NCBI GenBank assembly: GCA_025934435.1
Contig: JAICYB010000025.1
Location: forward strand, 1 to 41,083
DNA length: 41,083 bases
Source: Actinomycetes bacterium
Lineage (GTDB): Bacteria; Actinomycetota; JAICYB01
Direction of reading: 5' to 3'
Under the pieces are notes generated by a model that was not told the DNA's origin, searched no databases, and saw only the letters and a list, made by a program, of their open reading frames with translations. The position numbers and the translations under genes were made by a program. Within the stretch, counting starts at the first letter, position 1. Every line of letters starts with the position of its first letter. Shown here piece by piece: positions 24,995-39,550 of the stretch.

Positions 24995-25941
24995 CGCGAG
25001 TCGATACTGAACGCGACGACGCGTTCGAGCAGGATCTCGGCCGGCAGGACGGCGCCGTCCTCGCCGCCTTTCAGCTCGAAGTCGGCTTGCGCGAGCGCAC
25101 CGTGCATCCCGAACAACCAATCCCACGTCAGCCGCGGGGCCTGACGCCGGATCACGCCGACGCGACCTTCCGATAGGCCGACGGACTTCGCGACCTGACC
25201 GTCCTTCATGGACGGATCACGCTCGATCATCGCTTTGACCTTGATCACGCCGCGGATCTGCGAGACGAGCGCACCGAGCACGGGCAGAGGTTCATCCCCG
25301 GCATCGAGCAGACGGCGGAGTGACGCGAGCGCTTTGTCGCCTTCGCGTTTCACGATCGCGTCGAACAAGATCCAGATCGGCTGCTCGGCGGACGACGAGA
25401 AGTGCTGACCGACGACGTCCCGTCCGGCCTTGCCGCCCTTGCCGACGCGAAGCGCGAGCTGATCGACGGCCTGCGCGAGGTCGCGCAAGCTCTCGCCGAC
25501 GGCTTCCACGAGCGCCGGTGCTCCGTCCTTCGTGGGATCGACTCCCGCGCGCTTCATCCGCTTCATCACCCAGGCGATCAGCTCGCCGCGGCGCGGACGC
25601 TGCAGACGCGTCACGGCGGCAACGTCGGACAGCGCACCCATGAGCGACGTCGGAGGACGCTCCGCGACGGCGGTGATCACGACGTCGGCGGGTTCGCCGT
25701 CCATCCCGAGCGTCGCGACGACCTTCTCGATACCGGACTTGTTCAACGCTTGAGCGTTCCGCAGAACGACGAGCCGCTTCGAGGAGAAGAGCGACCCGGC
25801 GAAGACGGCTTCCTCGAGGCCGTCGGCTCCTGTTTCGAGGTCGACCGTGAGGACCTCGGCGTCGCGCCCGGCGGCGTCGACGGCCTCGTCCACCGCTTCG
25901 GACGCGAGCAGGTCGTCCTGCGCCCAGATCAACGTGTTCAT
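24991..25941 (-). CDS. holA: DNA polymerase III delta subunit
   Basis: A 316-residue HolA, the clamp-loader subunit that opens the beta clamp. It starts MNTLIWAQDDLLASEAVDEAV and has the delta-type N-terminal domain with SLFSSKRLVVLRNAQAL, VVITAVAERPPTS and LRDLAQAVDQLALR, followed by the helical collar domain (PIWILFDAIVKREGDKALASLRRLLDAG, PRLTWDWLFGMHGALAQADFELKGG). As usual for delta it has no Walker motifs. Its ATG shares ATGA with the comEC stop. Confidence 0.92.
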   Translation of the reverse strand: MNTLIWAQDDLLASEAVDEAVDAAGRDAEVLTVDLETGADGLEEAVFAGSLFSSKRLVVLRNAQALNKSGIEKVVATLGMDGEPADVVITAVAERPPTSLMGALSDVAAVTRLQRPRRGELIAWVMKRMKRAGVDPTKDGAPALVEAVGESLRDLAQAVDQLALRVGKGGKAGRDVVGQHFSSSAEQPIWILFDAIVKREGDKALASLRRLLDAGDEPLPVLGALVSQIRGVIKVKAMIERDPSMKDGQVAKSVGLSEGRVGVIRRQAPRLTWDWLFGMHGALAQADFELKGGEDGAVLPAEILLERVVAFSIDSR

Positions 25942-28157
25942 CGCTGCTCCATCACCTGTAGGTCGGCACCATCGACACAGACCAGCACGCGTCCATCTTC
26001 GTCGGTGCGGAAGACAGGACCGCGCGCAGCGTAGCTCCGGACGGCCTCGGGTGCCGGAAGGCCGTAGGGGTTCGGCTGCCCGACGGTGATGAGCGTCATC
26101 CGTGCTCCGACCGCTGCGGGGAATGCCGGGTCGAGGTCCTTCGAGCCGTGGTGCGGCGCGACGAGCACGGCGGCGGACACGTCCTCGTATGCCGCCAGCG
26201 CGATCTGCTGCGGCGAGCGGATATCTCCCGGCAGCAGAACGCGATCGCCGTCGATCGTCGCTTTGAGGACCAGACTGCTCGCGTCGATCGCATCCTGCGA
26301 GAAGGTTTCGAGGTCGCGGTCGGACGGCCAGAGCACCTCGACGTGGATCGCACCGGCGTCGATCGCGTCGCCTTCGGCAACGGGATCGAACGGTACGCCG
26401 GCGCGTCGCGCTTCACCGATCACCTGTGCACCGGACTGCCAGACGAGCTCGGCCGGACCGTAGAGATGTCCGACGCGCATGCGACGCAGCACGTCGATCG
26501 CACCGAGCGCGTGATCGATGTGTGAGTGCGTGATGTAGATGGCGTCGATCGCGTTCACGCCGGTCGCGCGGATCTGATCGACGACACCGCCGGCCGCCGG
26601 CCCGGTGTCGACGAGCACGGAGTGCGAACCGTCGTGCAGGAGCACCGCGCTCCCCTGACCGACGTCGAGCGCGGCCACGAAGGCTCCCGGGCAGGACGGC
26701 CCACCGATGGCACGTCCGCCCGAAGCGCCGAAGAGCACGACCGCGAGACCGACACTCGCAGCGCGGACGCGTGTCGAACGCACGGCGAAAGCCGCGAGCG
26801 CAGCGGTGATCGCGCACGCCGCGACCACACTCATACTGAGGCTCGCGGCCGGGATCCGTGCGAACGCATGAGCGGACCCGAGGATCACGTCGAGCGGGAG
26901 CCGCATCGTCGCGGGGGCCCAAGCGAAGACGCGGAACACCGACGCCGCGGTCAGTGTCGCCATCCCGCCGAGCATCACGAAGCCGCCCAGGGGGATCGCG
27001 ACGATGTTGGCGAAACCACCGAGACCCGGGATGCGTCCGAAATGCCACGCCAAGAGTGGAGCCACCGCGATCTGTGCGGCGACCGTCGTCCCGAGGCCGG
27101 ACGCCGCCGCGCGCACGAAGCGCGCATCGCTTCGCGCGAGGATCTTCGACGCGAGCGCTTCCCCCCACAGGATGATCCCGAGCGTCGCACCGAACGACAG
27201 TTGGAAGCCGACGGTAAACAGCATCTCGGGCGCGAGCAGGATCAGCAGAGCGAAGGCGAGCGACGCCGCACGGAGGGCGTCGGCGCGTCGTCCGCCCGCG
27301 CCGACGACGAGGGCGATCCCGGCGGAGACCGTTGCGCGGAGCACGGACGGCTGCAGTCCGGTCAGGAAGGCGAAGAACACGAGCGCCGGCAAGGCGGCGG
27401 CGATGCGCAGCCACCGCCCGCGCGGAACCAGAAAACGGACGAGCACCATGACGATCGCGAGGAAGACCGCGACGTTGTAGCCCGACACCGCGACGAGGTG
27501 CGCGAGGCCGGTGGTACGGAAGTCCTCCGTCGTGGACGTATCGATCAGCGCGGTATCCCCGTCCGTCATCCCGAGGAGCAGCCCGGCCTGCTTGCGCGGG
27601 AGGGCGTGTGCAGCCACGTCGGAGTAGCGCGCACGTACGGCCGCCGACCACGATCGTAGTCGCGACCCGGTTCCGAGCCGGTCGAGGGTGTCGGCGACGA
27701 GGAGGGGAGGTTCGTCCCGTCCGGCCCGCGCTGTGCGCAGACCGCCCGTCGCGCACACACGCTCACCGACGTGCGCCTTGCCCGCGCCGCGGCCCGACAC
27801 GCGTAGCGGCTCGCGCACACGCCAGCCTTGCGAACGGCGGACGATGCGGTCGATCTGCAGCCTCACGGAATGGGGGCCGAGCTCGTCGACGACGCCGCAC
27901 GCGCGGACGACGGCCTTCGTCGTGGCGAGCTTCGGCGCGAGCGCTTCGGACGACGCCGCCGTCCGCCACGCCGCCGACGCGCTCGACGCGAACACGAGCG
28001 CGATGCACGCCCCGATGAAGAGCACCCGGCGGAACACCACGACACCGACCACGGCGACGAACACGACGATGGCGGAACCGACGGCGAGCCACGGTCGACC
28101 GAACCCGATCGCCGTCCCCGCACCGACGCAGATCGCGGCGACGACGGCCGCATTCAT
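25938..28157 (-). CDS. comEC: DNA uptake channel protein ComEC
   Basis: A 739-residue protein of the ComEC/Rec2 family, the inner-membrane channel for single-stranded DNA in transformation. The N-terminus has membrane segments and a DUF4131/OB-like region. The competence domain (about 180-450) has LVAVSGYNVAVFLAIVMV and GLQPSVLRATVSAGIAL with many membrane helices. The C-terminal metallo-beta-lactamase domain (about 480-739) has LDVGQGSAVLLHDG, the metal motif THSHIDHALGAI and VLVAPHHGSKD. ATG 28157 shares ATGA with comEA; the long frame above it overlaps comEA. Presence of comEA and comEC suggests DNA uptake, but pilus genes are not in the window. Confidence 0.93.
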   Translation of the reverse strand: MNAAVVAAICVGAGTAIGFGRPWLAVGSAIVVFVAVVGVVVFRRVLFIGACIALVFASSASAAWRTAASSEALAPKLATTKAVVRACGVVDELGPHSVRLQIDRIVRRSQGWRVREPLRVSGRGAGKAHVGERVCATGGLRTARAGRDEPPLLVADTLDRLGTGSRLRSWSAAVRARYSDVAAHALPRKQAGLLLGMTDGDTALIDTSTTEDFRTTGLAHLVAVSGYNVAVFLAIVMVLVRFLVPRGRWLRIAAALPALVFFAFLTGLQPSVLRATVSAGIALVVGAGGRRADALRAASLAFALLILLAPEMLFTVGFQLSFGATLGIILWGEALASKILARSDARFVRAAASGLGTTVAAQIAVAPLLAWHFGRIPGLGGFANIVAIPLGGFVMLGGMATLTAASVFRVFAWAPATMRLPLDVILGSAHAFARIPAASLSMSVVAACAITAALAAFAVRSTRVRAASVGLAVVLFGASGGRAIGGPSCPGAFVAALDVGQGSAVLLHDGSHSVLVDTGPAAGGVVDQIRATGVNAIDAIYITHSHIDHALGAIDVLRRMRVGHLYGPAELVWQSGAQVIGEARRAGVPFDPVAEGDAIDAGAIHVEVLWPSDRDLETFSQDAIDASSLVLKATIDGDRVLLPGDIRSPQQIALAAYEDVSAAVLVAPHHGSKDLDPAFPAAVGARMTLITVGQPNPYGLPAPEAVRSYAARGPVFRTDEDGRVLVCVDGADLQVMEQR

Positions 28158-28735
28158 ACGGTGACGTGCGGACGGATCTGATCGAGCTTCCGCGGCCCGA
28201 TACCCGGGACGTTCTGGAGATCGTCGACCGTCCGGAAGCCGCCGTGGTCCGTCCGGTAAGCGATGATCTTCTGCGCCGTCGACGGACCGACACCCGGAAG
28301 TGTCTCGAGCTGATCGGCCGTGGCCGTGTTCAGGTTGATGAGCGCGCCCTCGCTCGACGACGGCGCCGCCTGCGCTCCCGCGCCCCCGCTCTTCGCCGGG
28401 ACGAGCACCTTGTCCCCGTCCTTCACCTTGGCCGCGAGATTCAGCGCGTCGAGATCGGCATCGTCCGCGGCGCCCCCGGCCGTCAGCACGGCGTCGTTGA
28501 CGCGCGCGCCCTCGTGGAGCTCGTACAGGCCCGGATGCCTCACGGAACCGGCGACGTGGACGAAGATCAGATGTCCGGACGACGTGGCCGACGGCGAGGC
28601 GAGCGAGATGTGCGCCGGCTTCGGCCGTGCGCGCATGGCGACCCCGTACCCGCCGACGACACCCACGGCAGCGAGTACGCACAGGACGACAGCGATGCGT
28701 CGCGCGGGCAGGGATCTGAGGAATGCTTCCACCAC
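28154..28735 (-). CDS. comEA: ComEA, DNA-binding competence protein
   Basis: A 193-residue ComEA. A membrane anchor (about 14-34, VVLCVLAAVGVVGGYGVAM) is followed by an SLBB domain (about 56-112, FVHVAGSVRHPGLYELHEG) and a C-terminal helix-hairpin-helix pair (about 131-191, INLNTATADQLETLPGVGPS and FRTVDDLQNVPGIGPRKLDQI) that binds DNA outside the membrane. Two GTG codons stand in tandem; GGAGG is 1 base before the first (28735) and 4 before the second (28732), so the second may be the true start. The gene follows leuS by 55 bases. Confidence 0.93.
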   Translation of the reverse strand: MVEAFLRSLPARRIAVVLCVLAAVGVVGGYGVAMRARPKPAHISLASPSATSSGHLIFVHVAGSVRHPGLYELHEGARVNDAVLTAGGAADDADLDALNLAAKVKDGDKVLVPAKSGGAGAQAAPSSSEGALINLNTATADQLETLPGVGPSTAQKIIAYRTDHGGFRTVDDLQNVPGIGPRKLDQIRPHVTV

Positions 28736-28761
28736 GCCTCCATGGACGGCCGTGGGGAAGA

Positions 28762-28783
28762 CCGCTGCGAACCGTAGCAGCGG
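28762..28783 (-). terminator. Hairpin after leuS, possible terminator
   Basis: A perfect 7-bp stem CCGCTGC/GCAGCGG with an 8-base loop lies 7 bases after the leuS stop and before comEA. The following minus-strand bases (TCTTCCCC) are only weakly T-rich, so termination would be partial at best. Confidence 0.3.
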
Positions 28784-28790
28784 GTGCTGA

Positions 28791-31223
28791 CTACTTCTCG
28801 AGCACGAAGTTCACGAGGTTCGGCGGACGCGCGATCACGCGCGCGACCTCCCGCCCCTCGAGCTGCTCGGCGATGCGCTCGGCTCCGCGCGCAGCCTCGA
28901 TCGCCGCGGCTTCGTCGATGTCGCCGGGCACCTCGACCTTGCCGCGGACCTTCGAGTCGATCTGCACGATCAGGGTCGTCGTGTCGACGGCCGCCAACCC
29001 GGCGTCGACTTCGGGCCAAGATTCGTCGTGGACGGAACCCGAAGCCCCGAGCTCCGACCACAGCTCCTCGGCCAGGTACGGCGCGATCGGCGCGAGGACG
29101 CGCAGCAGCACGTCGACACCTTCGCGAAGGTCGGAGGCCGATGCGTCGGACGAAGCGAGCGTCCGCTGGAGCGTCATCATCTCGGATATCGCGGTATTGA
29201 AGGCGGCGCGGTCGTAGCGCTCGGTGATCGCCGCGAGCGCTCGATGTGTTGCGCGACGTACCGCAGACACGCCGGACGGAGCGCCGGCTCGGCGCAACAG
29301 GTCGATGTTGTCCGTTACGAGCCGCCACACGCGTTCGCAGAATCTGTACGCGCCGACACAGGCTTCGGCGCCCTCCGGTGGCCACTCGTAGGCGTCGGTC
29401 GGCGGCCCGATGAACAAGATGAACACGCGCAGCGCGTCGACGCCGAAGCGCGCGATCACCTCGCCGGGCTCGACGATGTTGCCGAGCGACTTCGACATCA
29501 TCTTCCCGCCCATCGAGATGAGGCCGTGGTTCATCAGCCGCTTGAAGGGCTCGGTCGCTTCGACGAGGCCCATGTCGTGGAGGAACTTCGTCACGAATCG
29601 CGCGTAGATCAAGTGCATGACGGCGTGCTCGATGCCGCCCGTGTACTGATCGACGTTCATCCAGGCATCGGCGAGGTCGCGATCGAAGATCGCCGCTTCG
29701 TTGTGCGGGTCGCAGAAGCGCAGGAAGTACCAGGACGAGTCGACGAAGGTGTCCATCGTGTCCGTCTCCCGGCGCGCGTCACCGCCGCACGACGGGCATG
29801 TGGTGGTGACCCAATCCGTCGCTTTCGCGAGCGGTGACATCGCGTCGTCGGTCAGGTGGTAGTCGGCGTCGAGCGGGAGCTCGAGTGGGAGCTGGTCGTC
29901 GGGCAACCCGACGATGCCGCACGAGTCGCAATGGACGACGGGGATGGGCGTTCCCCAGTAGCGCTGGCGCGAGATCAGCCAGTCGCGCATGCGGAACTGG
30001 ATCTCGGGCCGTCCGATGCCGCGATCGGCGAGGTGATCGATGATCGCCCGCTTCGCCTCCGCCGTCGGAAGTCCGTCGAACGGACCGGAGTTCGTCGCGA
30101 CCCCGTCGCCTTCGAACGGAAGCTCGTCCCCGCCCTCGACGACGCGGCGAACGGGCGCGCCGATCTGCTCCGCGAACTCGAAGTCGCGCGTGTCGTGTCC
30201 CGGGACGGCCATGATCGCACCCGTCCCGTAACCCATCAGCACATAGTCGGACGCGAAGACCGGCACTTCCTCGCCGTTCAAGGGGTTCACGACGTGCGCT
30301 TGCAGGTCGAACGCTCGTCGCTCGCGCTTCGTCGCCATGCGCTCGATATCCGTCGCCCGCCGGACGTCATCGAGGAACGCCGCATACTCCGCGGCCTTCC
30401 CGGCGCGGTGCGCGAGCTTGGCGGCAACGGGATGCTCGGCGGCGAAGACGAAGAACGTCACCCCGTACAGCGTGTCGGGACGGGTCGTGAACACCTCGAT
30501 CTCGTCGCCCGTCTCGGCGATGGTGAACGTGACTCGCGCGCCTTCGGATCGTCCGATCCAATTGCGCTGTTGCGTCAGGACGGCGTCGCCCCACTCGAGC
30601 TGATCCATGTCGTCGAGGAGGCGCTGCGCGTACTCCGTCGTCTTGAAGAACCACTGATCGAGATCTCGTACCTCGGGAACCGACCCACAGCGCCAGCACA
30701 CGCCGTTACTGATCTGCTCGTTCGCGAGCACCGTCTTGTCGACGGGGCACCAGTTGACCTTCGCGACCTTCTTGTACGCGAGTCCGCGTTCGAACAGACG
30801 AAGGAACAACCACTGGTTCCACTTGTAATAGGACGGATCACAGGTGATCAGGTTCCGGTCCCAGTCGAAGGTGAACGCGAGCTTCTTGCACGACGCCGTG
30901 AACTTCTCGATGTTGTCGTACGTCGACTCGCGCGGATGGATCCCGAGTTTGATCGCGGCGTTCTCGGCGGGAAGGCCGAAGGCGTCGTACCCGAACGGGT
31001 GCAGGACGTCGAACCCCCGCATCTTCCAGTGGCGCGCGAACGCGTCGCCGATCGTGTAGTTCTCGACGTGTCCCACGTGCATGTCGCCCGACGGGTACGG
31101 ATACATCTCGAGGACGTAGCGCTTCGGGCGCGACGGCACGCGCGGCGCCGCCCACGCGTTATGCGACTCCCAGATCGGGAGCCACTTCTCCTCGATCGCC
31201 TTGAAGTCGTACCGCTCGGTCAT
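28791..31223 (-). CDS. leuS: Leucyl-tRNA synthetase
   Basis: An 810-residue class I LeuRS charging tRNA-Leu. The HIGH motif is YPYPSGDMHVGH, and the KMSKS motif is GGKMMSKSLGN. A zinc-type domain (CWRCGSVPEV) and a large CP1 editing domain (about 220-410, RPDTLYGVTFF, GTGAIMAVPGHDTRDFEFA) are present, with the anticodon-binding domain and C-terminal domain at the end. The frame is open to 31262, but that start lies inside a terminator hairpin. ATG 31223 (MTERYDFKAIEEKW) has GGGAG 5 bases upstream and fits homologues. The leader upstream codes a Leu-rich peptide and an apparent attenuator, so charged tRNA-Leu probably controls expression. Confidence 0.96.
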   Translation of the reverse strand: MTERYDFKAIEEKWLPIWESHNAWAAPRVPSRPKRYVLEMYPYPSGDMHVGHVENYTIGDAFARHWKMRGFDVLHPFGYDAFGLPAENAAIKLGIHPRESTYDNIEKFTASCKKLAFTFDWDRNLITCDPSYYKWNQWLFLRLFERGLAYKKVAKVNWCPVDKTVLANEQISNGVCWRCGSVPEVRDLDQWFFKTTEYAQRLLDDMDQLEWGDAVLTQQRNWIGRSEGARVTFTIAETGDEIEVFTTRPDTLYGVTFFVFAAEHPVAAKLAHRAGKAAEYAAFLDDVRRATDIERMATKRERRAFDLQAHVVNPLNGEEVPVFASDYVLMGYGTGAIMAVPGHDTRDFEFAEQIGAPVRRVVEGGDELPFEGDGVATNSGPFDGLPTAEAKRAIIDHLADRGIGRPEIQFRMRDWLISRQRYWGTPIPVVHCDSCGIVGLPDDQLPLELPLDADYHLTDDAMSPLAKATDWVTTTCPSCGGDARRETDTMDTFVDSSWYFLRFCDPHNEAAIFDRDLADAWMNVDQYTGGIEHAVMHLIYARFVTKFLHDMGLVEATEPFKRLMNHGLISMGGKMMSKSLGNIVEPGEVIARFGVDALRVFILFIGPPTDAYEWPPEGAEACVGAYRFCERVWRLVTDNIDLLRRAGAPSGVSAVRRATHRALAAITERYDRAAFNTAISEMMTLQRTLASSDASASDLREGVDVLLRVLAPIAPYLAEELWSELGASGSVHDESWPEVDAGLAAVDTTTLIVQIDSKVRGKVEVPGDIDEAAAIEAARGAERIAEQLEGREVARVIARPPNLVNFVLEK

Positions 31224-31238
31224 CCGTTCTCCCGTAAG

Positions 31239-31268
31239 AAAAAACCTCCCGTGGCGATGCACGAGAGG
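31239..31268 (-). terminator. Intrinsic terminator (attenuator) in the leuS leader
   Basis: On the minus strand CCTCTCGTG (31268-31260) pairs with CACGGGAGG (31253-31245) over 9 bp with one U-G pair, around a 6-base loop, and is followed at once by TTTTTT (31244-31239). This is a full intrinsic terminator, yet it lies only 6 bases upstream of the leuS ribosome site, inside the leader. It makes sense only as a conditional terminator. Confidence 0.85.
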
Positions 31269-31271
31269 TCG

Positions 31272-31297
31272 GGCGAGCGCCGCGTCCGGCGCCCGCC
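31272..31297 (-). promoter_or_regulatory. Upstream hairpin of the leuS attenuator
   Basis: GGCGGGCGCC pairs with GGCGCTCGCC (10 bp including one G-U) around a 6-base loop. The 5' arm begins on the last base of the leader-peptide stop codon, the position of a pause or protector hairpin. The 3' flank GCCCGA is complementary to TCGGGC within the leader codons for Leu-Gly-Leu, so an alternative pairing is possible. Confidence 0.65.
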
Positions 31298-31332
31298 TAC
31301 ATAAGCCCGAGGCCCATGCAGTTCAGGTTCAT
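31297..31332 (-). CDS. Leader peptide of leuS (MNLNCMGLGLM)
   Basis: An 11-codon frame, ATG to TAG, whose three leucine codons are CTG, CTC and CTT, all different. It lies between a -10-like box and the attenuator hairpins. The ATG stands 8 bases after TAAAGT, so the transcript would start at or next to it, as in leaderless attenuator peptides known from Actinobacteria. A stalled ribosome at the Leu codons would sit on the region that precedes the first hairpin. Too short to prove by coding statistics; the support is the leucine content and the layout. Confidence 0.7.
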   Translation of the reverse strand: MNLNCMGLGLM

Positions 31333-31340
31333 CTCCGCCT

Positions 31341-31346
31341 ACTTTA
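31341..31346 (-). promoter_or_regulatory. Candidate -10 box of the leuS leader
   Basis: TAAAGT on the minus strand lies 12 bases after the stop of the ABC ATPase gene and 8 bases before the leader-peptide ATG. The -35 region is unclear; TTGCGC occurs 14 bases upstream, which is short. Confidence 0.45.
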
Positions 31347-31357
31347 ACAGAGCGGCC

Positions 31358-32320
31358 TCAGCGCAACGGTCGAACGAGATCGCCCGGTCGCTTGCTACCG
31401 ATGCGGCGCTTGAATTCCGCAACGCTCAGCGCGTGCACGACCGAACGACGCGTCGCGCGCGCCGTCGCCGCGCGAGGGAACCCGAGCAGGGGGCCGAGCT
31501 CCCCGAAGTACTCCCCCGGTCCGTACGACGCGAGGACATCGCCGCCGCGCACGACCTCGATCTTCCCCGCTTCCACGAGATAGATCTCCTGGCCCACCGA
31601 GCCTTGCTCGAACAGCACCTGTCCTCGTGAGAGCTCCGTCGACTTCGCCGCACCGTTCCGGCGCCGCACTTTCGGCGCGAGATCGATGACGCGGTCGGCT
31701 AGCGGGACGATCCGGGAGTCGTGGGTCGACACGAGCACCGTCCGGCCCGGTCGGGCCAGACCGCGCAGCAGGCGAAGCACGCCGTCGACCTGGACGTGAT
31801 CGAGATGCGCCGTGGGTTCGTCCGCCAGGATCAGCGGTGGATCGTGCGCGAGCGCCCGGGCGATCGCGACCCGCTGCTGTTCCCCACCGGACAGATCCCC
31901 GGGACGATGCCGTTCGCGATCCTCGAGCGCGACCTGCGCGAGCAACGACCGCGCGCGGTCGCGTGCCTTCCGCGCGCCCATGCCGGCCGCGAGCATCGGC
32001 GTATCGACGTTCTCCAGCGCGGAGAGACTCGGGATCAGATTGAACGATTGGAACACGACGCCGACGGTCTCCTGCCGGTACCGCTCGAGGGCCTTCCCGG
32101 TGAGCGCCGTCACTTCCGTGTCGCCGACGCGGATCGATCCACTCGTCGGACGAAGGATCCCTGCGAGCGACGACAGCAACGTCGTCTTCCCGCACCCGCT
32201 CGGACCGAGCAGGAGCACGAGTTCGCCCGACGTCGCCTTCAGCGAGAAGTCATCGAGGGGACGCGTCGTGTACGAACCGTTCCGGTACTCGACGACGAGC
32301 GACGAGACGTCGATGTTCAT
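31358..32320 (-). CDS. ABC transporter ATPase (MacB/LolD type) fused to a cyclic-nucleotide-binding domain
   Basis: A 320-residue protein. Residues 1-222 are a complete ABC ATPase: Walker A GPSGCGKT (39-46), Q-loop VVFQSFNLIPSLSALENV, signature LSGGEQQR (143-150), Walker B LILADEPTAHLD and switch His H200. Residues of about 228-310 form a cNMP-binding domain: SRGQVLFEQGSVGQEIYLVEAGKIEVV and the cassette YFGELGPLLGFPRAATARA with E274 and R283 retained. No DNA-binding domain follows. The fusion suggests that a cyclic nucleotide, or a look-alike, gates the transporter; that is inference. The stop is 4 bases-overlapped by nothing, but the start shares ATGA with the permease gene upstream. Confidence 0.92.
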   Translation of the reverse strand: MNIDVSSLVVEYRNGSYTTRPLDDFSLKATSGELVLLLGPSGCGKTTLLSSLAGILRPTSGSIRVGDTEVTALTGKALERYRQETVGVVFQSFNLIPSLSALENVDTPMLAAGMGARKARDRARSLLAQVALEDRERHRPGDLSGGEQQRVAIARALAHDPPLILADEPTAHLDHVQVDGVLRLLRGLARPGRTVLVSTHDSRIVPLADRVIDLAPKVRRRNGAAKSTELSRGQVLFEQGSVGQEIYLVEAGKIEVVRGGDVLASYGPGEYFGELGPLLGFPRAATARATRRSVVHALSVAEFKRRIGSKRPGDLVRPLR

Positions 32321-33363
32321 GGTCCCGCGAACGCGAGAGCCGGTTGCACCGTCGCCGCGCGTCTGATCCCGAAACCGCTCGCGAGCAGACCGACCACGAC
32401 GGCGATGGCGAACAGCAACGGGTACGCGTTCACGGGCATCACGAGACGCATGGGGAACAACGGTGTCAGCAACTTCGCCACCCCGAGAGCCAGCACGGCC
32501 GCGACGACCGACACGACGACCGACTGCAGGGCAAGACCCCCGAAGATGTGCCGCGTCGACACCCCCGTCGCCTTCATCACCGCGAAGTCGCGCGTTCGCT
32601 CCAGCGCGGACAGGTAGATCACAACGCCGACGATGAGCGCCGCGACGACCCAGAGCACGGAGCGTGTGAAGTCGATCGTGCGGACGGCCTTGCTGAGCGG
32701 ACGCAGCCCGTCGAGCGCGGCTTCGTCCGGCGACATCGCTTGGAATCCGTGAGGCACCTTCGTCGGTACACCTCGGGTCGCGAACGTCGACACGAGCGGC
32801 GCGCCGAAGATCATCGTCGCCTGCGCGTCTTCCAATCGGACGAAGACGTCCGGATTGCCGCCGATCAGCGTCATACCGCGCACGGTTCCGACGACGCGGA
32901 AGGTGTGTCCCTGGACGGTGACCGTTCCGCCGATCGGCGCGCCGGCCGAGACATCGGCGATCGCTTCACCCGGACGCAGATCGCTTCGCCCCGTCACGTC
33001 TCGCGGCGTCCCCAGCGCGCCGGGCTCGAACCCGACGATGTTGCCTTCCGTCGCGTGTGGCCGAGTGATGGCCGCCGGAACGAAGATCATCGGCTCGGCC
33101 TCCCGCACAGCGGGCAGATGCGCGATCTCTCCGAGGTCGGCTGCCGGCAGGTAGTTCACGCTCGCGAGCGGGCCGCCGCCGCCGCTGCGGACGACCCACG
33201 CGTCGGCACCGACGGTGTCGACGGTCGCATGCACCTCAGCGCGGAACGCGTTGCTGAGTCCGGAGAGGAGGAGCGACATCGCGAAGACGAGCGACGTCCC
33301 GACGATGGCGACGATGAATCGCCGACGCCGCCACATCAGATCGCGGACGCTGTTCCGCCACAT
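32317..33363 (-). CDS. FtsX/MacB-type ABC transporter permease
   Basis: A 348-residue permease of the FtsX-like family. One N-terminal membrane segment (about 14-36, RFIVAIVGTSLVFAMSLLLSG) is followed by a large extracytoplasmic MacB_PCD-like domain (about 37-235) and three C-terminal segments (about 238-258, 283-303, 315-337) with SALERTRDFAVMKATGVSTRHI, the FtsX coupling region. It overlaps the ATPase-cNMP gene by ATGA, so the two form one transporter. Substrates of this family include lipoproteins, peptides and antimicrobials; nothing here says which. ATG 33363 is divergent from the M20 peptidase gene. Confidence 0.9.
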   Translation of the reverse strand: MWRNSVRDLMWRRRRFIVAIVGTSLVFAMSLLLSGLSNAFRAEVHATVDTVGADAWVVRSGGGGPLASVNYLPAADLGEIAHLPAVREAEPMIFVPAAITRPHATEGNIVGFEPGALGTPRDVTGRSDLRPGEAIADVSAGAPIGGTVTVQGHTFRVVGTVRGMTLIGGNPDVFVRLEDAQATMIFGAPLVSTFATRGVPTKVPHGFQAMSPDEAALDGLRPLSKAVRTIDFTRSVLWVVAALIVGVVIYLSALERTRDFAVMKATGVSTRHIFGGLALQSVVVSVVAAVLALGVAKLLTPLFPMRLVMPVNAYPLLFAIAVVVGLLASGFGIRRAATVQPALAFAGP

Positions 33364-33407
33364 CCCGCGGCAGTGTGGCTGCTACCGCCGAGGTTGAACA
33401 GGCCGAA

Positions 33408-34499
33408 ATGCACACATCGGATAACGTGAGCGCCGTGGAACGCGTCATCGAGCTGACGACCGCGCTCGTCGCGTTCCCCACCCACGAACGCGAGGCCGAC
33501 GCGCAGGCCTTCCTCGCGTCCATCCTCGAGGCCGCGGGATTCGACTGCCGTCTGCAGGAGGTCGCTCCGGGGCGGCCGAACCTCATCGCGCGGAGGGGTT
33601 CGTCCGGCCCGTTTCTCTGTTCGCACATCGACGTGCACCCCCCGCACGCACACCCCGATCCGTGGACGGCGCGCGTCGACGGTGACGTCCTCATCGGTCG
33701 AGGTGTCCTCGACGCGAAAGGACAGGTCGCCGCGATCGTCGCCGCCTGCGAAGCCGAACGCGACGCCGACGCGTGCGTGCTCATCACGTGCGACGAAGAG
33801 TTCGCCGGCCTCGGTTCGCTGCACGCCGACGTCCCCGACGGACCGTGGTTCGACGACGGCGGGATCGTCTGCGAGCCGACGGGGTTCCGTGTGTGCACCG
33901 CGCAGATGGGCAACGTCGACGTCCACCTCGAAGCGGACGCACCTCCACATCACGCGTATTCGATCGAAGCCGGTGGATCGCCGGTCCACGCGATCCTCGC
34001 AGCGATCGAGTCGCTTGACTCCTGCGCCTTCCTGAAGTCGCGCCATCCGCTGCTCCCGCAACCGCGCCTGAATATCGGACGGATCCGTGGCGGCGAGCAC
34101 GCGTGGCGTGCGCCGGCTCACGCCGAGCTCCACGCGACGATGGGTGTCGTCCCGGGAACGTCGATCGAAGATGCGATCGCCGACGTCACGAAGCGCGTCG
34201 GCGAGATGACCGGTCGCTGGGCATCGCGTGGCGTCACGATCGCGGGAGGAGTGACGGACTCGAGCGAACCCGTCGAGATGCCGGACGACCTTCCGATCGC
34301 GAAGCGTCTCGGAGCTGATCCATCCGGCATGCCGTCGTGGACGGACGCCGCGTATCTCTACTTGAAGCACGATCTGCCCTGCGTGGTGTTCGGCGCCGGT
34401 GAGCTGACGACCGCACACTCCGACTTCGAAACCGTGGACGTTGCCGACCTCGTGCAACTCAGCGAGACACTCCGTGGCGTCCTGCGGAGCTACGGGTAG
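33408..34499 (+). CDS. M20-family metallopeptidase/deacylase (ArgE/DapE type)
   Basis: A 363-residue zinc hydrolase of the M20 family. Ligands are visible: H73 and D75 in CSHIDVHPPH, the bridging D102 in GRGVLDAKGQ, and the catalytic/ligand pair E130-E131 in TCDEEFAG. A dimerisation-type domain follows (VHLEADAPPHHAYSIEAGGSPVHAIL), and the last His ligand is in TAHSDFE. Substrate (an N-acyl amino acid or peptide) is not evident. Starts are uncertain: the frame opens at GTG 33375, ATG 33408 has a weak AGG, and GTG 33435 is also possible. It is divergent from the permease and overlaps convergent ydeI-like gene by 10 bases. Confidence 0.85.
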   Translation: MHTSDNVSAVERVIELTTALVAFPTHEREADAQAFLASILEAAGFDCRLQEVAPGRPNLIARRGSSGPFLCSHIDVHPPHAHPDPWTARVDGDVLIGRGVLDAKGQVAAIVAACEAERDADACVLITCDEEFAGLGSLHADVPDGPWFDDGGIVCEPTGFRVCTAQMGNVDVHLEADAPPHHAYSIEAGGSPVHAILAAIESLDSCAFLKSRHPLLPQPRLNIGRIRGGEHAWRAPAHAELHATMGVVPGTSIEDAIADVTKRVGEMTGRWASRGVTIAGGVTDSSEPVEMPDDLPIAKRLGADPSGMPSWTDAAYLYLKHDLPCVVFGAGELTTAHSDFETVDVADLVQLSETLRGVLRSYG

Positions 34500-35065
34500 A
34501 GCTTCTCCCCTTTCGCGCACATCTCGACGAACTTCGCGATGCGCGCGGCGCGCGTCTCAGGCTTCTTCGCGGCCGCGAGGCGGTGCAGGATGGCGTAGCG
34601 GTTCTGACTGTCGAGCTTCGCGAAGAACGTCCTCGCCTTCTTGTTCTTGTTCAGCGCGCGTTCGAGGTCGACCGGAACCGTCGCCGTCGACGGCGGATCG
34701 TACGCGCGGTCCCACTCGCCGTTGCTCTTCGCGCGTTCGATCGCTTCGAAGCCCGATGGCTTCATTCGGCCGGCGTCGATGAGCTTCAACGCCTTCTCCC
34801 GATTGATCTTCGACCAGCGGCTCCGGGGGCCGCGCGGCGTGAAGCGCTGGAGCGAGATCTCGGGTCCACCCGACCTGCCTTGTCCGTCGATCCACCCGTA
34901 ACAGAGCGCGGACTCGACGGCCTCCATGTAGTTCACCGTCTTGATGGGGACGCCCTTCTTCGCGAACTCGAGCCACACCGCGCGCTCCTTCGCGTGATTG
35001 CGTTCGAGCCAGCGCTCCCAGGCGCGCTGATCCTTCAGCCGAACGACGGGTTCGGCCGGATTCAC
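34490..35065 (-). CDS. YdeI/OmpD-associated family protein
   Basis: A 191-residue protein of the YdeI/OmdA family, called bacteriocin-protection proteins from work in enterobacteria. ERAVWLEFAKKG, VESALCYGWIDGQGRSG, LQRFTPRGPRSRWSKINREKALKLIDAGRM and the helical C-terminal domain (NKKARTFFAKLDSQNRYAILHRLAAAKKPETRAARI) are typical. The molecular function is not known, and bacteriocin protection should not be assumed here. GTG 35065 shares GTGA with the stop of the aminotransferase, so the two are coupled. Confidence 0.88.
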   Translation of the reverse strand: MNPAEPVVRLKDQRAWERWLERNHAKERAVWLEFAKKGVPIKTVNYMEAVESALCYGWIDGQGRSGGPEISLQRFTPRGPRSRWSKINREKALKLIDAGRMKPSGFEAIERAKSNGEWDRAYDPPSTATVPVDLERALNKNKKARTFFAKLDSQNRYAILHRLAAAKKPETRAARIAKFVEMCAKGEKLYP

Positions 35066-36147
35066 AGCAGCGTGTCGATCGCACCGAGCAGGCGTTCGAC
35101 GTTTCCCTCGCGGGCGTTGTGTCCCATGAGGCCGATACGCCAGCAGGTTCCTTTGAACGGACCGAGTCCCGATCCGACTTCGATGCCGTGTTCGGTCAGC
35201 AGGCGCGACCGAGCTGTTGCGTCGGCGACACCGTCGGGAAGACGGACGCAGTGCAGCATCGGCAATCGCGACGCCGCGACGTAGGAGAAGCCGCGCTCCT
35301 CGAGTCCCGCGGCAAGCGTCGCGGCGGTGCGCACATGCCGCTCGTAGCGAGCGTCCAGCCCTTCATCGAGGACGACACCCAAGCCGGCGTGGAGGGCGAA
35401 GACCATCGAGATCGGCGCCGTGTGGTGGTACACGCGGTCGCTCCCCCAGTAGCCCGCGAGCAGACCGACGTCGAGATACCAGCTCTGGACCGGCGTCTTC
35501 CGCGATCGCACCACATCGAGCGCGCGCTCGCTGAACGTGATGGGCGCAAGACCCGGCGGAACCGAGATGCACTTCTGCGTACCCGAGTAGCAGACGTCGA
35601 CGCCCCACGCGTCGATGTCGACGTTCATCCCGGCGAGCGATGTGACGGTATCGAGCACGAACAGCGTGTTCCGTCCGCGAAGTAGCTCGGCGATCTCGTC
35701 GATCGGCTGCGCGACCCCCGTCGATGTCTCAGCATGCACGAGCGCGAACGCCTTCGCCTCCGGGTGATCGTCGAGCGCTCGTGCAACGTCCGACGCTTCG
35801 ATGATCCGTCCCCATTCGGCCTCGACCTTGACGACCTTCGCGCCGGCGCGGGATGCGACGTCGCACATGCGTCCGCCGAACACGCCGTTGACGCCGACGA
35901 CGATCTCGTCACCCGGTTCGAGGACGTTCACGAGCGCGGCCTCCATGCCCGCACTCCCCGTTCCGGAGACGGCGAACGTCATCCGGTTCGCCGTCTTGAA
36001 GACCATGCGAAGCCGCTCGGCAACTTCGTCGAGCAAACCCAGGAACTCCGGGTCGAGGTGCCCCAGGAGCGGACGCCCGAGCGCCGCGAGTACCTCCGGT
36101 GCCGCGTTCGACGGGCCGGGACCCATCAGCAACCGTTCTCGGGCCAT
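35062..36147 (-). CDS. Class V aminotransferase (alanine-glyoxylate / serine-type)
   Basis: A 361-residue PLP enzyme of the alanine-glyoxylate/serine-pyruvate aminotransferase group. It starts with RERLLMGPGPSN, has VSGTGSAGMEAAL for the cofactor phosphate, D166 in LFVLDTVTSLAG for the pyridine nitrogen, and the Schiff-base lysine K192 in CYSGTQKCISVPPGLAP. The C-terminal WRIGLMGHNA is also typical. The amino donor is not certain (alanine, serine or aspartate). ATG 36147 overlaps the stop of the P-loop gene by one base (TGATG). Panto-thenate gene panB lies just beyond, on the other strand, but a link is not shown. Confidence 0.9.
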   Translation of the reverse strand: MARERLLMGPGPSNAAPEVLAALGRPLLGHLDPEFLGLLDEVAERLRMVFKTANRMTFAVSGTGSAGMEAALVNVLEPGDEIVVGVNGVFGGRMCDVASRAGAKVVKVEAEWGRIIEASDVARALDDHPEAKAFALVHAETSTGVAQPIDEIAELLRGRNTLFVLDTVTSLAGMNVDIDAWGVDVCYSGTQKCISVPPGLAPITFSERALDVVRSRKTPVQSWYLDVGLLAGYWGSDRVYHHTAPISMVFALHAGLGVVLDEGLDARYERHVRTAATLAAGLEERGFSYVAASRLPMLHCVRLPDGVADATARSRLLTEHGIEVGSGLGPFKGTCWRIGLMGHNAREGNVERLLGAIDTLL

Positions 36148-36680
36148 CAGCCGACGGCGTCGATCAGTGCCTGCGTGCGCTCCTCGACCGAACCCGTGAG
36201 CGTCTCGTAGCGCACGTCGTTCGATTCGAGGAGGTTCACCATGCGCGCGTCGATGTCGCGCTGGAAGTCCGGGTCGTCCGGACGGAGCCCGTCGAGGACG
36301 ATGCCGAACTCGATCGGCAGATAGAACACGTGCGTGTACTGCGAACGCAGATGGAACTTCGCGATGTCGAGGCAGGTGTCCCAGAGCGCGAACTCCTTGC
36401 GTCGCTCCTGGTTCTCGAGCACCCAGCTGGCGTACGCCATGACGTCGATCAGCGACCGGTCCCCAACGAAGTCCGCGTGCTGCATCTCGTTGTAGAACTG
36501 CCGCAGGAAGATGAGCGTCTCCGTCTCCACGGTCGCGTCCTTGTCGAGCTTGAACCCGAGCTCGATGACCTGACGCGCTACCTCGGGCAGAAGCGGCAGG
36601 CCGAGCTTCGGTGCGGCGACTTCGGCGAGGGTTGTCTTGCCCGTCGAAAACGAGCCCACGATGGCCACTCTTCTTGGCAT
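36147..36680 (-). CDS. P-loop NTPase/kinase, AAA_28 (NadR/Ttd14-like)
   Basis: A 177-residue P-loop protein with Walker A GSFSTGKT (9-16), then EVARQVIELGF, a DRSLIDVMAYASWV region similar to the aspartate of nucleoside-type kinases, and THVFYLPIEFGIVLDGLRPDDPDFQRDID. This resembles the AAA_28/NadR-kinase group. The substrate is unknown. ATG 36680 (MPRRVAIVG) is chosen: TATGAT lies exactly 7 bases upstream and no ribosome site is present, so it is probably leaderless. Two further ATG codons at 36689 and 36692 lie inside that box. Confidence 0.85.
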   Translation of the reverse strand: MPRRVAIVGSFSTGKTTLAEVAAPKLGLPLLPEVARQVIELGFKLDKDATVETETLIFLRQFYNEMQHADFVGDRSLIDVMAYASWVLENQERRKEFALWDTCLDIAKFHLRSQYTHVFYLPIEFGIVLDGLRPDDPDFQRDIDARMVNLLESNDVRYETLTGSVEERTQALIDAVG

Positions 36681-36687
36681 GCGTGGC

Positions 36688-36693
36688 ATCATA
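36688..36693 (-). promoter_or_regulatory. -10 box of a probable leaderless promoter for the AAA_28 gene
   Basis: TATGAT on the minus strand, then GCCACGC, then ATG 36680. The 7-base spacing places the start of transcription on the start codon. Confidence 0.5.
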
Positions 36694-36734
36694 AAGGGGT
36701 CACGGGGACCCGGGCGTCGGGCCTCGATGAGCCA

Positions 36735-36740
36735 GGGAGG
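36735..36740 (+). promoter_or_regulatory. Ribosome binding site fixing the TTG start of panB
   Basis: GGGAGG lies 5 bases before TTG 36746, the only plausible start ahead of the conserved VSIHHLADW sequence. Confidence 0.7.
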
Positions 36741-36745
36741 CAGCT

Positions 36746-37534
36746 TTGCCCGTCTCTATCCATCACCTCGCCGACTGGCGTGCGCGCGGGGAGAAGTTCG
36801 TCATGGTGACGGCGTACGACGCGCTCATCGCGCGCGTCCTCGACGAGTCCGGTGTGCCGATCCTGCTCGTCGGCGACTCGGTGTCGAACGTCCTGCTCGG
36901 TCACGCGACCACGCTTCAGGTGACGATGGACGACATGCTCCATCACGCCCGCGCCGTCGCGCGCGGCGCGAAGGACGCGCTGCTCGTCGGCGACCTTCCC
37001 TTCGGGAGCTACCAGACGCCCGAGGACGCCGTACGCAACGCAACGGAATTCCTCCGCATCGGGATGCACTGCGTGAAGCTCGAAGGCGCCGGCCCGGCGG
37101 TCGAGGCCGTAGCGGCACTTACTGATCGCGGCATCCCGGTCATGGGCCACCTCGGCCTCACGCCGCAGTTCGTGAACGCGATCGGCGGTTACAAGGTGCA
37201 AGGACGAGGCGACGCCGGCGAGAAGCTTCTCGAAGACGCCAAGGCCCTGCAGGACGCCGGCATCTTCGCGCTCGTGCTCGAATGTGTTCCGTCGGCGCTC
37301 GGCGACCGCGTCACGCGCGAGCTCGAGATCCCGACCATCGGCATCGGCGCCGGCCCGCACACCGACGGTCAGGTGCTCGTCTGCTGGGACATGCTCGGTC
37401 TCACGCCGGGCCCTTCGCCGCGTTTCGTGAAGCGCTATGCCGATCTCGCATCGGACATACGGGATGCGGTGCAGCTGTTCGCGAAGGAAGTGTCCGAGGG
37501 GATCTACCCGGCCCCCGAGCACGCCTACAAGTAA
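36746..37534 (+). CDS. panB: 3-methyl-2-oxobutanoate hydroxymethyltransferase PanB
   Basis: A 262-residue ketopantoate hydroxymethyltransferase, the first step of pantothenate (coenzyme A) synthesis, using methylene-tetrahydrofolate. MVTAYDALIARVLDESG, LLVGDSVSNVLLGHATTLQVT (metal-binding Asp), CVKLEGAG, MGHLGLTPQ and IPTIGIGAGPHTDGQVLVCWDMLGL are hallmark segments. Length is usual. It starts with TTG behind GGGAGG, 53 bases from the divergent P-loop gene. Other pantothenate genes are not in the window. Its TAA abuts the stop of the convergent deacetylase gene. Confidence 0.95.
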   Translation: MPVSIHHLADWRARGEKFVMVTAYDALIARVLDESGVPILLVGDSVSNVLLGHATTLQVTMDDMLHHARAVARGAKDALLVGDLPFGSYQTPEDAVRNATEFLRIGMHCVKLEGAGPAVEAVAALTDRGIPVMGHLGLTPQFVNAIGGYKVQGRGDAGEKLLEDAKALQDAGIFALVLECVPSALGDRVTRELEIPTIGIGAGPHTDGQVLVCWDMLGLTPGPSPRFVKRYADLASDIRDAVQLFAKEVSEGIYPAPEHAYK

Positions 37535-38239
37535 TCAGTCGTCGGCGAAGCGCGCTTCCATCGTCGGCAGAACGCGGAAGGTCTCGGCGAACGCGTAACC
37601 GTGCGACTGTCCGGCCATCTGCGCGGCTCGGCGCATCACCGTTCCGACGTCCCAGTTGATCTGCGAACGATGCGCTTGCAGCGCCGCGATCTTGCGGTCG
37701 ATCGTCGCCGTGATGTCGACGCCATGCGAACCGCCCGCCGGGCCCATCACGTAGGTCTCGCGGAGGCCACGCCACGGCTCGTAACCCTCCTCGAGGAGTT
37801 CCGGGAAGTGGCCGGGCGTCGTCCCGGCGGTGACGGTGACGTCGAGCGTCGCCTGGCCGACCGCGCGGTGATCGGGGTGGTTGACGAACCAGTCACCGAG
37901 GATCGGACCGGGGTCGAGCGCCATCAAGCGATGCGGCTTCACGTCCCGGAACACTCGCGCGATGTCGCGCCGAAGGTCGAACGTGTACTCGACGTAGCCG
38001 TCCCGGTAGTCGAGGAATCGCACGTCGGTCACCCCGACGATGGACGCCGCTTCGAGCGTTTCGTCCCGCCGGATCTGCGCGAGCTTGGAGCCGGCGAGCT
38101 CGGCATCGGCGGTCCCCGTTGAGCCGTCGGTCACGATGCAGTAGGTGACCTCGTCGCCGGCGTCGGTCCATGCCGCGACCGATCCGGAGCAACTGAACTC
38201 GATGTCGTCGGGATGGGCACTCACACAAAGGACGCGCAT
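37535..38239 (-). CDS. LmbE/PIG-L family N-acetylglucosaminyl deacetylase-like protein
   Basis: A 234-residue zinc deacetylase-like protein. The signature SAHPDDIEFSCSGS gives H9, D11 and D12, and the second zinc motif is NHPDHRAVGQA. DLRRDIARVFRDVKPHRLMALDP is also typical. Actinobacterial relatives include MshB and Mca of mycothiol metabolism, but the family is wide and this call is not made here. The open frame reaches 38923; ATG 38239 (MRVLCVSAHPDD) is the real start, with TATCGT 6 bases upstream and no ribosome site. Confidence 0.9.
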   Translation of the reverse strand: MRVLCVSAHPDDIEFSCSGSVAAWTDAGDEVTYCIVTDGSTGTADAELAGSKLAQIRRDETLEAASIVGVTDVRFLDYRDGYVEYTFDLRRDIARVFRDVKPHRLMALDPGPILGDWFVNHPDHRAVGQATLDVTVTAGTTPGHFPELLEEGYEPWRGLRETYVMGPAGGSHGVDITATIDRKIAALQAHRSQINWDVGTVMRRAAQMAGQSHGYAFAETFRVLPTMEARFADD

Positions 38240-38245
38240 CGCGTC

Positions 38246-38255
38246 ACGATACCCT
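38246..38255. promoter_or_regulatory. Overlapping divergent leaderless promoters (LmbE gene / PAS gene)
   Basis: Minus-strand TATCGT (38246-38251) is followed by GACGCG and ATG 38239. Plus-strand TACCCT (38250-38255) is followed by GACCGA and GTG 38262. Both spacings are 6 bases, and the two boxes share two base pairs, so polymerase could occupy only one at a time. Neither gene has a ribosome site. Confidence 0.5.
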
Positions 38256-38261
38256 GACCGA

Positions 38262-38657
38262 GTGGAGCGCCCGAAGAGCCTCGTCCTCATCCGTGCGAAG
38301 CACCTCGCGGAAAGCGTGACGACGCCGATGTTCCTCGCCGACGCGGGCGGCAATCTCATCTTCTTCAACGAAGCGGCCGAAGCGATGCTCGGTCGTCCGT
38401 TCGGCGACAACGGACTCCTCACGCCGGGCGAGTGGCAGCAGACATTCGACGTCCGCGACCGGAACGACGCGCCGTTCGCCCTGGAGTCGATGGCGTCCTG
38501 GATGCAGGTACAAAACGAGCAACCGGCGATGGGGCACATCAAGTTCCGTTCGGCGGACGGGACCGACCATCTCGTGGCGACCTGTGCGTTTCCGCTCTTC
38601 ACCGAGCAGCAACGCTTCGAAGGCGCATTGATCTTGTTCTGGCGCGATGCCGGATGA
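38262..38657 (+). CDS. Single PAS-domain protein
   Basis: A 131-residue protein with one PAS fold (about 15-125): AESVTTPMFLADAGGNLIFFNEAAEAMLGRPF, then an FALESMASWM helix and the strands HIKFRSADGTDHLVATCAFPLF and FEGALILFWRD. No output domain is attached, so it may sense a small ligand or redox state and pass it to a partner. It shares ATGA with the following metallo-hydrolase gene, the likely partner or co-regulated enzyme. GTG 38262 is chosen over an open frame reaching 38145, which would overlap the divergent gene. Confidence 0.82.
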   Translation: MERPKSLVLIRAKHLAESVTTPMFLADAGGNLIFFNEAAEAMLGRPFGDNGLLTPGEWQQTFDVRDRNDAPFALESMASWMQVQNEQPAMGHIKFRSADGTDHLVATCAFPLFTEQQRFEGALILFWRDAG

Positions 38658-39520
38658 AGGCGACGATCTGGGGATGCCGCGGATCGCTTCCCGCTCCGGG
38701 TGCGTCGAAACTGAAGTACGGCGGCGATACGTCCTGCGTCGAAGTCGTCTTGTCGGACGGAACGCTCATCGTGCTCGACGCCGGCACCGGCATCCGCGAG
38801 TTCGGCTCGCAGCGCTGCGCCGGCGTGATGCGCGTGCACCTGCTCCTCACGCATCTCCACATGGATCACATCGAAGGGTTCCCGTTCTTCTCCCTGCTCT
38901 GGACGAAGGACTGCGACCTCCACGTCTGGGGACCGGCGTCGCCGATGCTCTCGCTCAAGGAACGCCTTGCGCGGTATATGTCACCGCCGCTGTTTCCGAT
39001 CGACGTGCACGACGTCCCGGCGAACGTCACGTTCCACGACCTTCCCGCCGAATCCTTCGAGATCGGACCGGCGACGGTCTTCGCCGCGGCCGTCGAACAT
39101 CCCGGTCCGACCATGGGATTCCGCATCACGGAGAACGGACGAACCTTCGCCTACATCCCCGACCACGAACCCGCGGCGCTCGGCGACTTCGCAAGCGAGT
39201 CACCGGACTGGATCGACGGCTATGCCGTCGCCGCGGACGCCGACGTGCTGCTCCACGACAGTCAGTACTCAGACGACGAGTACGCGACGAGGCGCGGCTG
39301 GGGCCATTCGTCGTTCGCCGACGCGGTGGCGTACGCGAAGGTGACCGGCGCGAAGCGCCTCCTGATGTTCCATCACGATCCGACGCACGACGACGCGACG
39401 CTCGAAGCGATGGAGCGCTCGGCGGCCGAGCTTTGGGGGCCGGACGGACCGCCGCCGCAGCTGGCCGCGTCCGGGATGACGATCACGCTCGAACGTGAAG
39501 GTGTAACCGTCCCGGCGTAG
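38654..39520 (+). CDS. Metallo-beta-lactamase-fold hydrolase (PhnP/cyclic phosphodiesterase-like group)
   Basis: A 288-residue MBL-fold enzyme. It starts with MKATIWGCRGSLPAPG and YGGDTSCVEVVLSDG, the opening of the COG1235-like group with PhnP and related phosphodiesterases. The metal motif is THLHMDHIEG (H67, H69, D71, H72), with further ligands probably in AVEHPGPTMGF, VLLHDSQYSDDEY and LLMFHHDPTHDD. The substrate could be a cyclic phosphate or nucleotide; this is open. It is coupled to the PAS gene by ATGA, and is followed by tRNA-Ala. Confidence 0.88.
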   Translation: MKATIWGCRGSLPAPGASKLKYGGDTSCVEVVLSDGTLIVLDAGTGIREFGSQRCAGVMRVHLLLTHLHMDHIEGFPFFSLLWTKDCDLHVWGPASPMLSLKERLARYMSPPLFPIDVHDVPANVTFHDLPAESFEIGPATVFAAAVEHPGPTMGFRITENGRTFAYIPDHEPAALGDFASESPDWIDGYAVAADADVLLHDSQYSDDEYATRRGWGHSSFADAVAYAKVTGAKRLLMFHHDPTHDDATLEAMERSAAELWGPDGPPPQLAASGMTITLEREGVTVPA

Positions 39521-39528
39521 GCCGGAGC

Positions 39529-39534
39529 TATACT
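39529..39534 (+). promoter_or_regulatory. Candidate -10 box for tRNA-Ala
   Basis: TATACT lies in the 30-base gap between the metallo-hydrolase stop and the tRNA, putting the start about 10 bases before the tRNA. The -35 region (ACCGTC at 17 bases) is poor. Confidence 0.4.
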
Positions 39535-39550
39535 CGCTGGTCGTTATCCT

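Follow-up and report, generated by a model that had tools for sequence, protein, structure and literature searches.

Leader-peptide attenuation of leuS is a known kind of control: attenuators of leuS were predicted in S. avermitilis and S. coelicolor in 2005 (PMC1262725), the leaderless leaders leuL2 and ilvL of S. lividans were mapped by RNA-seq in 2021 (PMC8079986), and attenuation of ilvBNC as well as a leuA leader were described in C. glutamicum (PMC4046766). An earlier note on the locus studied here had held attenuation of leuS to be less expected in this lineage, a view at odds with the Streptomyces prediction and the S. lividans RNA-seq. Streptomyces leuL2 resembles our locus in having a leaderless-type leader with Leu codons, a hairpin near the stop codon, a terminator and leuS downstream, but its leader has RLLLSEPR where ours has GLGLM. 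Leaders of ilvB with terminators were also predicted (PMC1262725), and the actinobacterial ilvB attenuators of Corynebacterium, Mycobacterium and Streptomyces described there share with our locus a short frame, branched-chain codons near its end and a terminator, to which S. lividans ilvL adds a leaderless start (PMC8079986). The LEU element in front of actinobacterial leuA, which we compared by its description, likewise contains a Leu-codon run within a short frame; it is described as a pseudoknot whose base stem pairs the Leu codons with the Shine-Dalgarno box (PMC1262725), and the leuA leader is presented in the S. lividans report as one without a typical terminator (PMC8079986). Leader-peptide attenuation of a tRNA synthetase gene is found, too, in gammaproteobacterial pheST (PMC1262725) and Firmicutes hisS (PMC2965389), where other amino acids and other phyla are concerned and the likeness is one of mechanism.

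In the window (the whole stretch of DNA analysed, 41,083 bases), the leuS leader reads on the minus strand from 31346 to 31224. A putative -10 box, TAAAGT (31341..31346), lies 8 nt 5' of the leader ATG, giving a leaderless-type start. The predicted frame MNLNCMGLGLM (31297..31332; ATG at 31332, TAG at 31299-31297) comprises 11 codons and a TAG stop and contains three different Leu codons, CTG, CTC and CTT, the last of which has its first base 8 nt 5' of a hairpin of 10 bp with the loop GGACGC, here called P (31272..31297), whose first G is the last base of the TAG. A linker of two bases (31270..31271) separates P from an intrinsic terminator (31239..31269) with the stem ACCTCTCGTG/CACGGGAGGT, the loop CATCGC and a T run; P and the terminator are both supported by folding and by covariation. 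Next comes GGGAG (31229..31233), a Shine-Dalgarno-like site of leuS. Reading the minus strand thus confirmed the order of parts given in the earlier note, except that the terminator stem (31269-31244) has 10 bp, one T-G pair included, and not 9; the T run consists of six T (31244-31239), the first of them paired in the stem. The leuS gene (28791..31223, minus strand) encodes a bacterial leucyl-tRNA synthetase of 810 aa (TIGR00396, 957.7 bits for a cut-off of 548.4). Only 15 bases lie between the T run and its ATG (31223), which to judge from the sequence is too little room for a separate leuS promoter between the T run and GGGAG, and the upstream transporter gene ends at 31358, just ahead of the leader promoter. 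Given this placement of the promoter right behind the upstream gene and the short distance from T run to ATG, leuS transcripts must cross the terminator.

A scan with Rfam 15 assigned the leader to no family at gathering score, T-box families included, and the same held for a scan of 16 related loci. The PyrR binding site (RF00515) was rejected at 20.1 bits for a gathering score of 54, MicL and a miRNA fell far under their cut-offs, and a T-box leader was dismissed because the motif TGGNACCRCG is absent from the window's leuS leader (L082). The only matches at gathering score in the whole window were two tRNA genes at 722-794 and 39551-39623.

The closest sequence kin that we found for the leuS leader is the ilvB leader of the same genome, G000 (L208; TIGR00118), in which TATACT is followed by the frame MKFASTVLVIH with a TAG stop, by P on the G of this stop and by the terminator CCTCTCGTCC...GGACGGGAGG. 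The ilvB leader of the related genome G002 has a like layout with the frame MKTLKSSIVLR. All three frames have 11 codons and a TAG stop with P on its G, and CCTCTCGT is common to the terminator 5' arms of the three leaders. When the two G000 leaders are aligned at the stop codon, VLVIH of ilvB (GTC CTC GTA ATT CAT) stands against GLGLM of leuS (GGC CTC GGG CTT ATG): other codons occupy the sister's Val and Ile positions and Leu alone is left of the branched-chain codons, in front of a gene that, in contrast to the targets of ilvB attenuators, encodes a tRNA synthetase. From these sequences, the leuS leader looks like a codon-exchanged sister of the ilvB attenuator. A third copy in G000 (L259) precedes leuB, an aminotransferase-like gene, by eye ilvE, and cimA, and its leader ends in SQVVIIR. 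A fourth hairpin pair (L258, 706-782) was seen 5' of an aminotransferase gene, for which no model scores above its cut-off, followed by serA; its leader, VKLTRRSNK, has one Ser codon.

The earlier note had made conservation of the small frame and terminator stem in relatives a test of its reading. The window's order and class comprise three genomes in our set, its own included, so that conservation at leuS can be checked in only two relatives, and a search for relatives of LeuS returned no close one, only loci at 38-49% identity among the best 80 of 233. The orthologous leuS genes of the nearest relatives, G001 and G002, lack the element, both on reading the sequence and in a search with the model R2 described below (L083/L084); conservation is found instead in front of a second leuS gene in G001 and of ilvB and leuB in G002.

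Covariance models trace the same pair of hairpins across the phylum. At E 0.01 the model R1, built from three sequences, found matches in 30 of 396 phylum genomes; some of the weak ones were chance or T-box terminators (L249, L256 and L257 were rejected as T-box terminators and L239 as a two-way terminator). R2, built from 22 aligned R1 matches and containing leader columns, matched 88 of the 396 genomes at E 0.001, in 119 places. Of these, 96 were fetched, the 23 left out all being at E 2.3e-6 or worse, and their downstream genes were assigned by tblastn against seven reference proteins: 86 places lie upstream of ilvB (38), leuA (31), leuB (9), leuS (5) or cimA (3), one is ahead of a serA operon and nine are unclassified. 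Among the last, L260 sits at a contig end with a leader identical to the leuS element of G191, and L338 was rejected as a family member, being a plain 3' terminator. For 10 of the 38 ilvB places, the match to ilvB starts about 350 to 680 nt past the terminator, so control is less direct there. The three cimA proteins all have TIGR00977 as their best match; that of L270 scores above the curated cut-off, and those of L288 and L325, which are cut by the fetched stretch, score below it. Since R2 includes leader columns, a third model, R3, was built from the two hairpins alone as a non-circular check. At E 1e-5 it found 33 places, 14 of them outside its training set, and 12 of these 14 precede leuA, leuS, ilvB or leuB, L260 and L275 being the exceptions; at E 0.01 it matched 91 of the 396 genomes, the places examined being mostly those at 1e-5 or better. 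The window is among the training sequences of R1, R2 and R3, and its own scores with these models are by construction.

The five leuS places of R2 are the window, G191 and the second leuS genes of G001, G014 and G060. These second genes (L236, L269 and L336, respectively) are divergent and carry a Leu attenuator; in G001 the main leuS is without it. When R2 was run on 77 of 80 named loci, it gave six matches at E 0.1, of which L007, the leuS of Streptomyces sp. SID13031, was accepted on inspection (its leader has the frame MRVTLLLS, a TAG stop with a hairpin on the G, and a terminator), and L002, a Bacillota locus, was rejected as a T-box. On 99 of 125 leuS upstream loci it gave 11 matches at E 1, including the window twice, L110, L202, L141 and three T-boxes; L126, L133 and L152 were not taken as real. 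L202, in G023, encodes a peptide identical to that of the S. lividans leuS leader leuL2, MRAVRLLLSEPR (PMC8079986), and matches R2 with 23.8 bits (E 4.3e-5 in this leuS-locus search), although no R2 match is listed for G023 at the genome-wide E of 0.001. From this peptide in G023, a genome of 9.2 Mb, the phylum is taken to be Actinomycetota. In this kin of leuL2, P is longer and starts inside the last codons, whereas P of the window starts on the stop codon. T-box leaders precede three leuS genes of the phylum (L086, L116 and L135), so that control of leuS differs in type among relatives. Two further leuS leaders depart from the twin-hairpin layout: that of L121 (G145), seen by eye, has 28 residues, seven of them Leu, and a terminator, and that of L171 (G099), VTPLLALALLLLPPRGE, is Leu-rich with no terminator found.

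Taken singly, some features of the window's leader say little. Three Leu residues in 11 codons are weak evidence alone, since the frame has paired Gly and Asn too, and the eight terminator-like sites counted in 25000-41083 prove nothing, being no more than the 6.8 expected from shuffles, though the site in the leuS leader has the most pairs (11). The search for Leu codons upstream of leuS that the earlier note had proposed was more telling: a leaderless-type frame with clustered Leu codons followed by a terminator occurs in six of 125 leuS upstream stretches of the phylum, some of which are short (L129, 114 bases) and a few of which begin within the gene. The same count for each other amino acid is 0 or 1 of 125, and 20 dinucleotide-shuffled sets gave a mean of 0.05 for Leu. 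The six are the window, G009 (MRAILLLS), G085 (MAAALLLSPPR), G110 (MRQLLA), G023 with the leuL2 peptide, and a doubtful one in G006 (L166). The strongest evidence that the leuS leader exceeds chance is its match to a leave-family-out profile of 81 leaders, that is the 96 fetched minus eight of the window's family and seven unclassified. The single significant match of this profile in 41,083 bases is the leuS leader, at E 2e-11 (4e-8 with the hairpins only), the next-best places being at E 0.89 and 1.6; its independence is not absolute, since the 81 leaders were gathered with R2, which was trained on 22 sequences including the window.

The codons of the leaders follow the downstream gene. Leader starts were chosen by start codon, -10-like hexamer, length and distance, with codon content ignored; a -10-like hexamer is present in 59 of 86 leaders, and some starts, such as those of L232 and L259, are uncertain. 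In the last seven residues, to which the comparison was confined, two or more Leu and at most one residue of Ile or Val are found in all 31 leuA and all five leuS leaders, and the reverse pattern, at least two Ile plus Val and fewer than two Leu, holds for all nine leuB and all three cimA leaders; codons and gene thus agree in 48 of 48. At least two Ile plus Val are present in 35 of the 37 ilvB cases in which a leader was found. Summed over these seven residues, leuA leaders contain 116 Leu vs 6 Ile plus Val, leuS leaders 13 vs 1, leuB leaders 1 Leu vs 30 Ile plus Val, cimA leaders, which all three end in Ile runs, 2 Leu vs 13 Ile, and ilvB leaders 64 Leu, 27 Ile and 86 Val. The Fisher p of 1e-37 for the match is overstated, since residues were treated as independent. 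The last Leu codon is CTT in 22 of the 36 leuA and leuS leaders; CTT makes up 5 of the 62 Leu codons in the window's leuS.

Covariation among homologues, a check that the earlier note had suggested, bore out both stems. In an alignment of the 96 leaders, which was fitted to the structure, double changes occur at 20 of 20 pairs with 96.1% of cells paired, and the covariation score is 0.504, compared with 0.177 for shuffles and no more than 0.081 for slid controls, with none of 500 shuffles reaching the native value. An independent MAFFT alignment of 21 sequences analysed with RNAalifold recovered both stems with 11 of 14 pairs compensated. Covariation within the three sequences of the window's class alone was not significant (37 of 500 shuffles reached it). 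The geometry is equally constrained: the stop codon is TAG in 76 of 85 leaders; from its first base to the start of the second pair of P the distance is 2 to 5 nt in 80 of 85, and measured from the first base of the last control codon it is 8 to 11 nt in 78 of 85; the linker between P and terminator has two bases in 19 of 22.

Taken together, the covarying stems, the gene-matched leader codons and the sister copies in G000 support the earlier reading of a leader-peptide attenuator. Sequence and comparison establish the parts, the covariation of the stems, their constant spacing and the agreement of codons with gene, and we consider it quite likely that the leuS leader is a conserved RNA element acting as a ribosome-mediated attenuator, predicted to let leuS be transcribed when charged tRNA-Leu is scarce. 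Transcription would start at or just 5' of the leader ATG. With Leu-tRNA plentiful, the frame would be completed, P and the terminator would fold, and transcription would end before leuS. With Leu-tRNA short, the ribosome would wait at the Leu codons, chiefly the last one, CTT, where its front would invade the first four or five bases of P and so melt this hairpin, whose 3' arm, once released, would delay or displace the terminator. The least certain step is the antiterminator pairing, for which GCCCGA with TCGTGC of the terminator 5' arm is the candidate in the window.

The earlier note had called the layout complete, which overstates it: an antiterminator was sought and none was found. On folding of the whole leader of the window, the mean probability of the terminator pairs is 0.98 for all ribosome positions examined, and P and the terminator are compatible, not alternative. 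The classical 1:2 / 2:3 / 3:4 scheme was examined by masked folding, prefix folding and arm permutation without yielding a firm antiterminator. Pairing of the 3' arm of P with the terminator showed no covariation in 22 leaders, the native arrangement being equalled or exceeded in stability by 1973 of 2000 permutations, a weak test given that the 3' arm of P varies little. The pairing of TCGGGC in the Leu codons with GCCCGA proposed in the earlier note stands as a complementarity in the window (-10.2 kcal/mol), where it would take only the outermost A from the terminator, but pairing of this type has no family-wide support, 1096 of 2000 permutations doing as well in the 22 leaders. In prefix folding of the window, before the 3' arm of the terminator exists, pairing of its 5' arm amounted to 0.24 when no ribosome was present; with the ribosome on codon 8, the last Leu codon or the stop it was 0.11, 0.36 or 0.27, respectively. 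The value of 0.61 at codon 3 misfits a simple scheme. Across the family, a ribosome was assumed to mask 13 nt counted from the first base of its A-site codon. Placed on the last control codon, it lowers the stability of P from a median of -20.3 to one of -6.7 kcal/mol, by more than half in 66 of 85 leaders; on the third-last control codon it leaves P whole (median of -20.5 kcal/mol over 81 leaders), and on the stop codon it abolishes P (median of -1.6 kcal/mol over 85). Because P opens even more at the stop codon, the position of the ribosome alone cannot separate starved from fed cells.

The same numbers lend themselves to a reading with the same sensing and the opposite role of P, in which P itself is the switch: folded P, with the ribosome at early Leu codons, would hinder the adjoining terminator, and a ribosome at the stop would open P and let the terminator work. 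That P is intact at the third-last control codon and lost at the stop, that it abuts the terminator across a two-base linker in 19 of 22 leaders, and that no antiterminator pairing was found where one was looked for would all fit; folding, however, reveals no clash between P and the terminator, and in most leaders (66 of 85) P has already lost over half its stability when the ribosome is stalled at the last control codon; we regard this version as improbable, if less so than the two that follow.

First, the terminator might merely end the transcript of the transporter gene that stops close by at 31358, the small frame being a chance occurrence and leuS being expressed by partial read-through; that terminator-like sites in this region are no commoner than in shuffles is in keeping with such a coincidence. 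The recurrence of the element, with matched codons, 5' of leuA, ilvB, leuB, cimA and leuS, and the leave-family-out E of 2e-11, make it very unlikely. We judge it no less unlikely that the reader of the hairpins is not a translating ribosome but, for instance, a tRNA, in the manner of a T-box, or a protein like PyrR. A conserved pair of hairpins could serve as the binding site of a factor, and the T-box leaders of other leuS genes in the phylum do draw weak R2 scores, but the window's leader has neither the T-box motif nor an Rfam match at gathering score, PyrR included (20.1 vs 54 bits), and the match between codons and gene makes sense only if the frame is read.

Ribosome-mediated attenuation being the preferred reading, a broader one, to which we give an even chance, would make the leuS leader one copy of a single ancestral, codon-programmable cassette, with its two hairpins fixed in place relative to the stop codon and its target changed by the exchange of three or four codons. 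Such a cassette would cover Leu (leuA, leuS), Ile (cimA), Ile/Val (leuB) and mixed (ilvB) sensing, perhaps also the serA operon, in much of Actinomycetota, and no RNA family of leader-peptide attenuators would have been defined in this phylum before it. On this view, the fixed distance from P to the last control codon would point to a switch driven directly by the place where the ribosome stops. In the literature searched, mostly outside subscription journals and in part through partial texts, we found no description of twin-hairpin leaders as one family, of a cimA or leuB leader in the phylum, or of a codon-exchanged leuS copy in this deep lineage. The leuS leader thereby ceases to be an isolated case and joins a family of attenuators that are conserved in structure and apparently owe their amino-acid specificity to the last few codons of the frame. 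A design rule follows, in that a codon swap should change the amino acid sensed; the covariance model finds such leaders in unannotated genomes, and the many natural variants offer material for working out how termination is avoided where no antiterminator is apparent.

Some leaders seen along the way lie at the edge of this family or outside it. In two large genomes of G023's family (L367 and L369), the frame MIIGSRRAGPQ, with two ATT Ile codons, is followed by a related hairpin-terminator pair, and the gene downstream looks by eye like cimA. In G000, the locus upstream of leuA (L220; PF00682) has a frame with FRNLLVLSS and CCTTAG...CTAAGG...GGAGG and resembles by eye the LEU element (PMC1262725) rather than the twin-hairpin element. 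Upstream of trpE in the same genome (L227; PF04715), a leader, MTARGVGRWEWLPG, contains two Trp codons with a strong terminator after it, and is on its sequence a probable trp attenuator.
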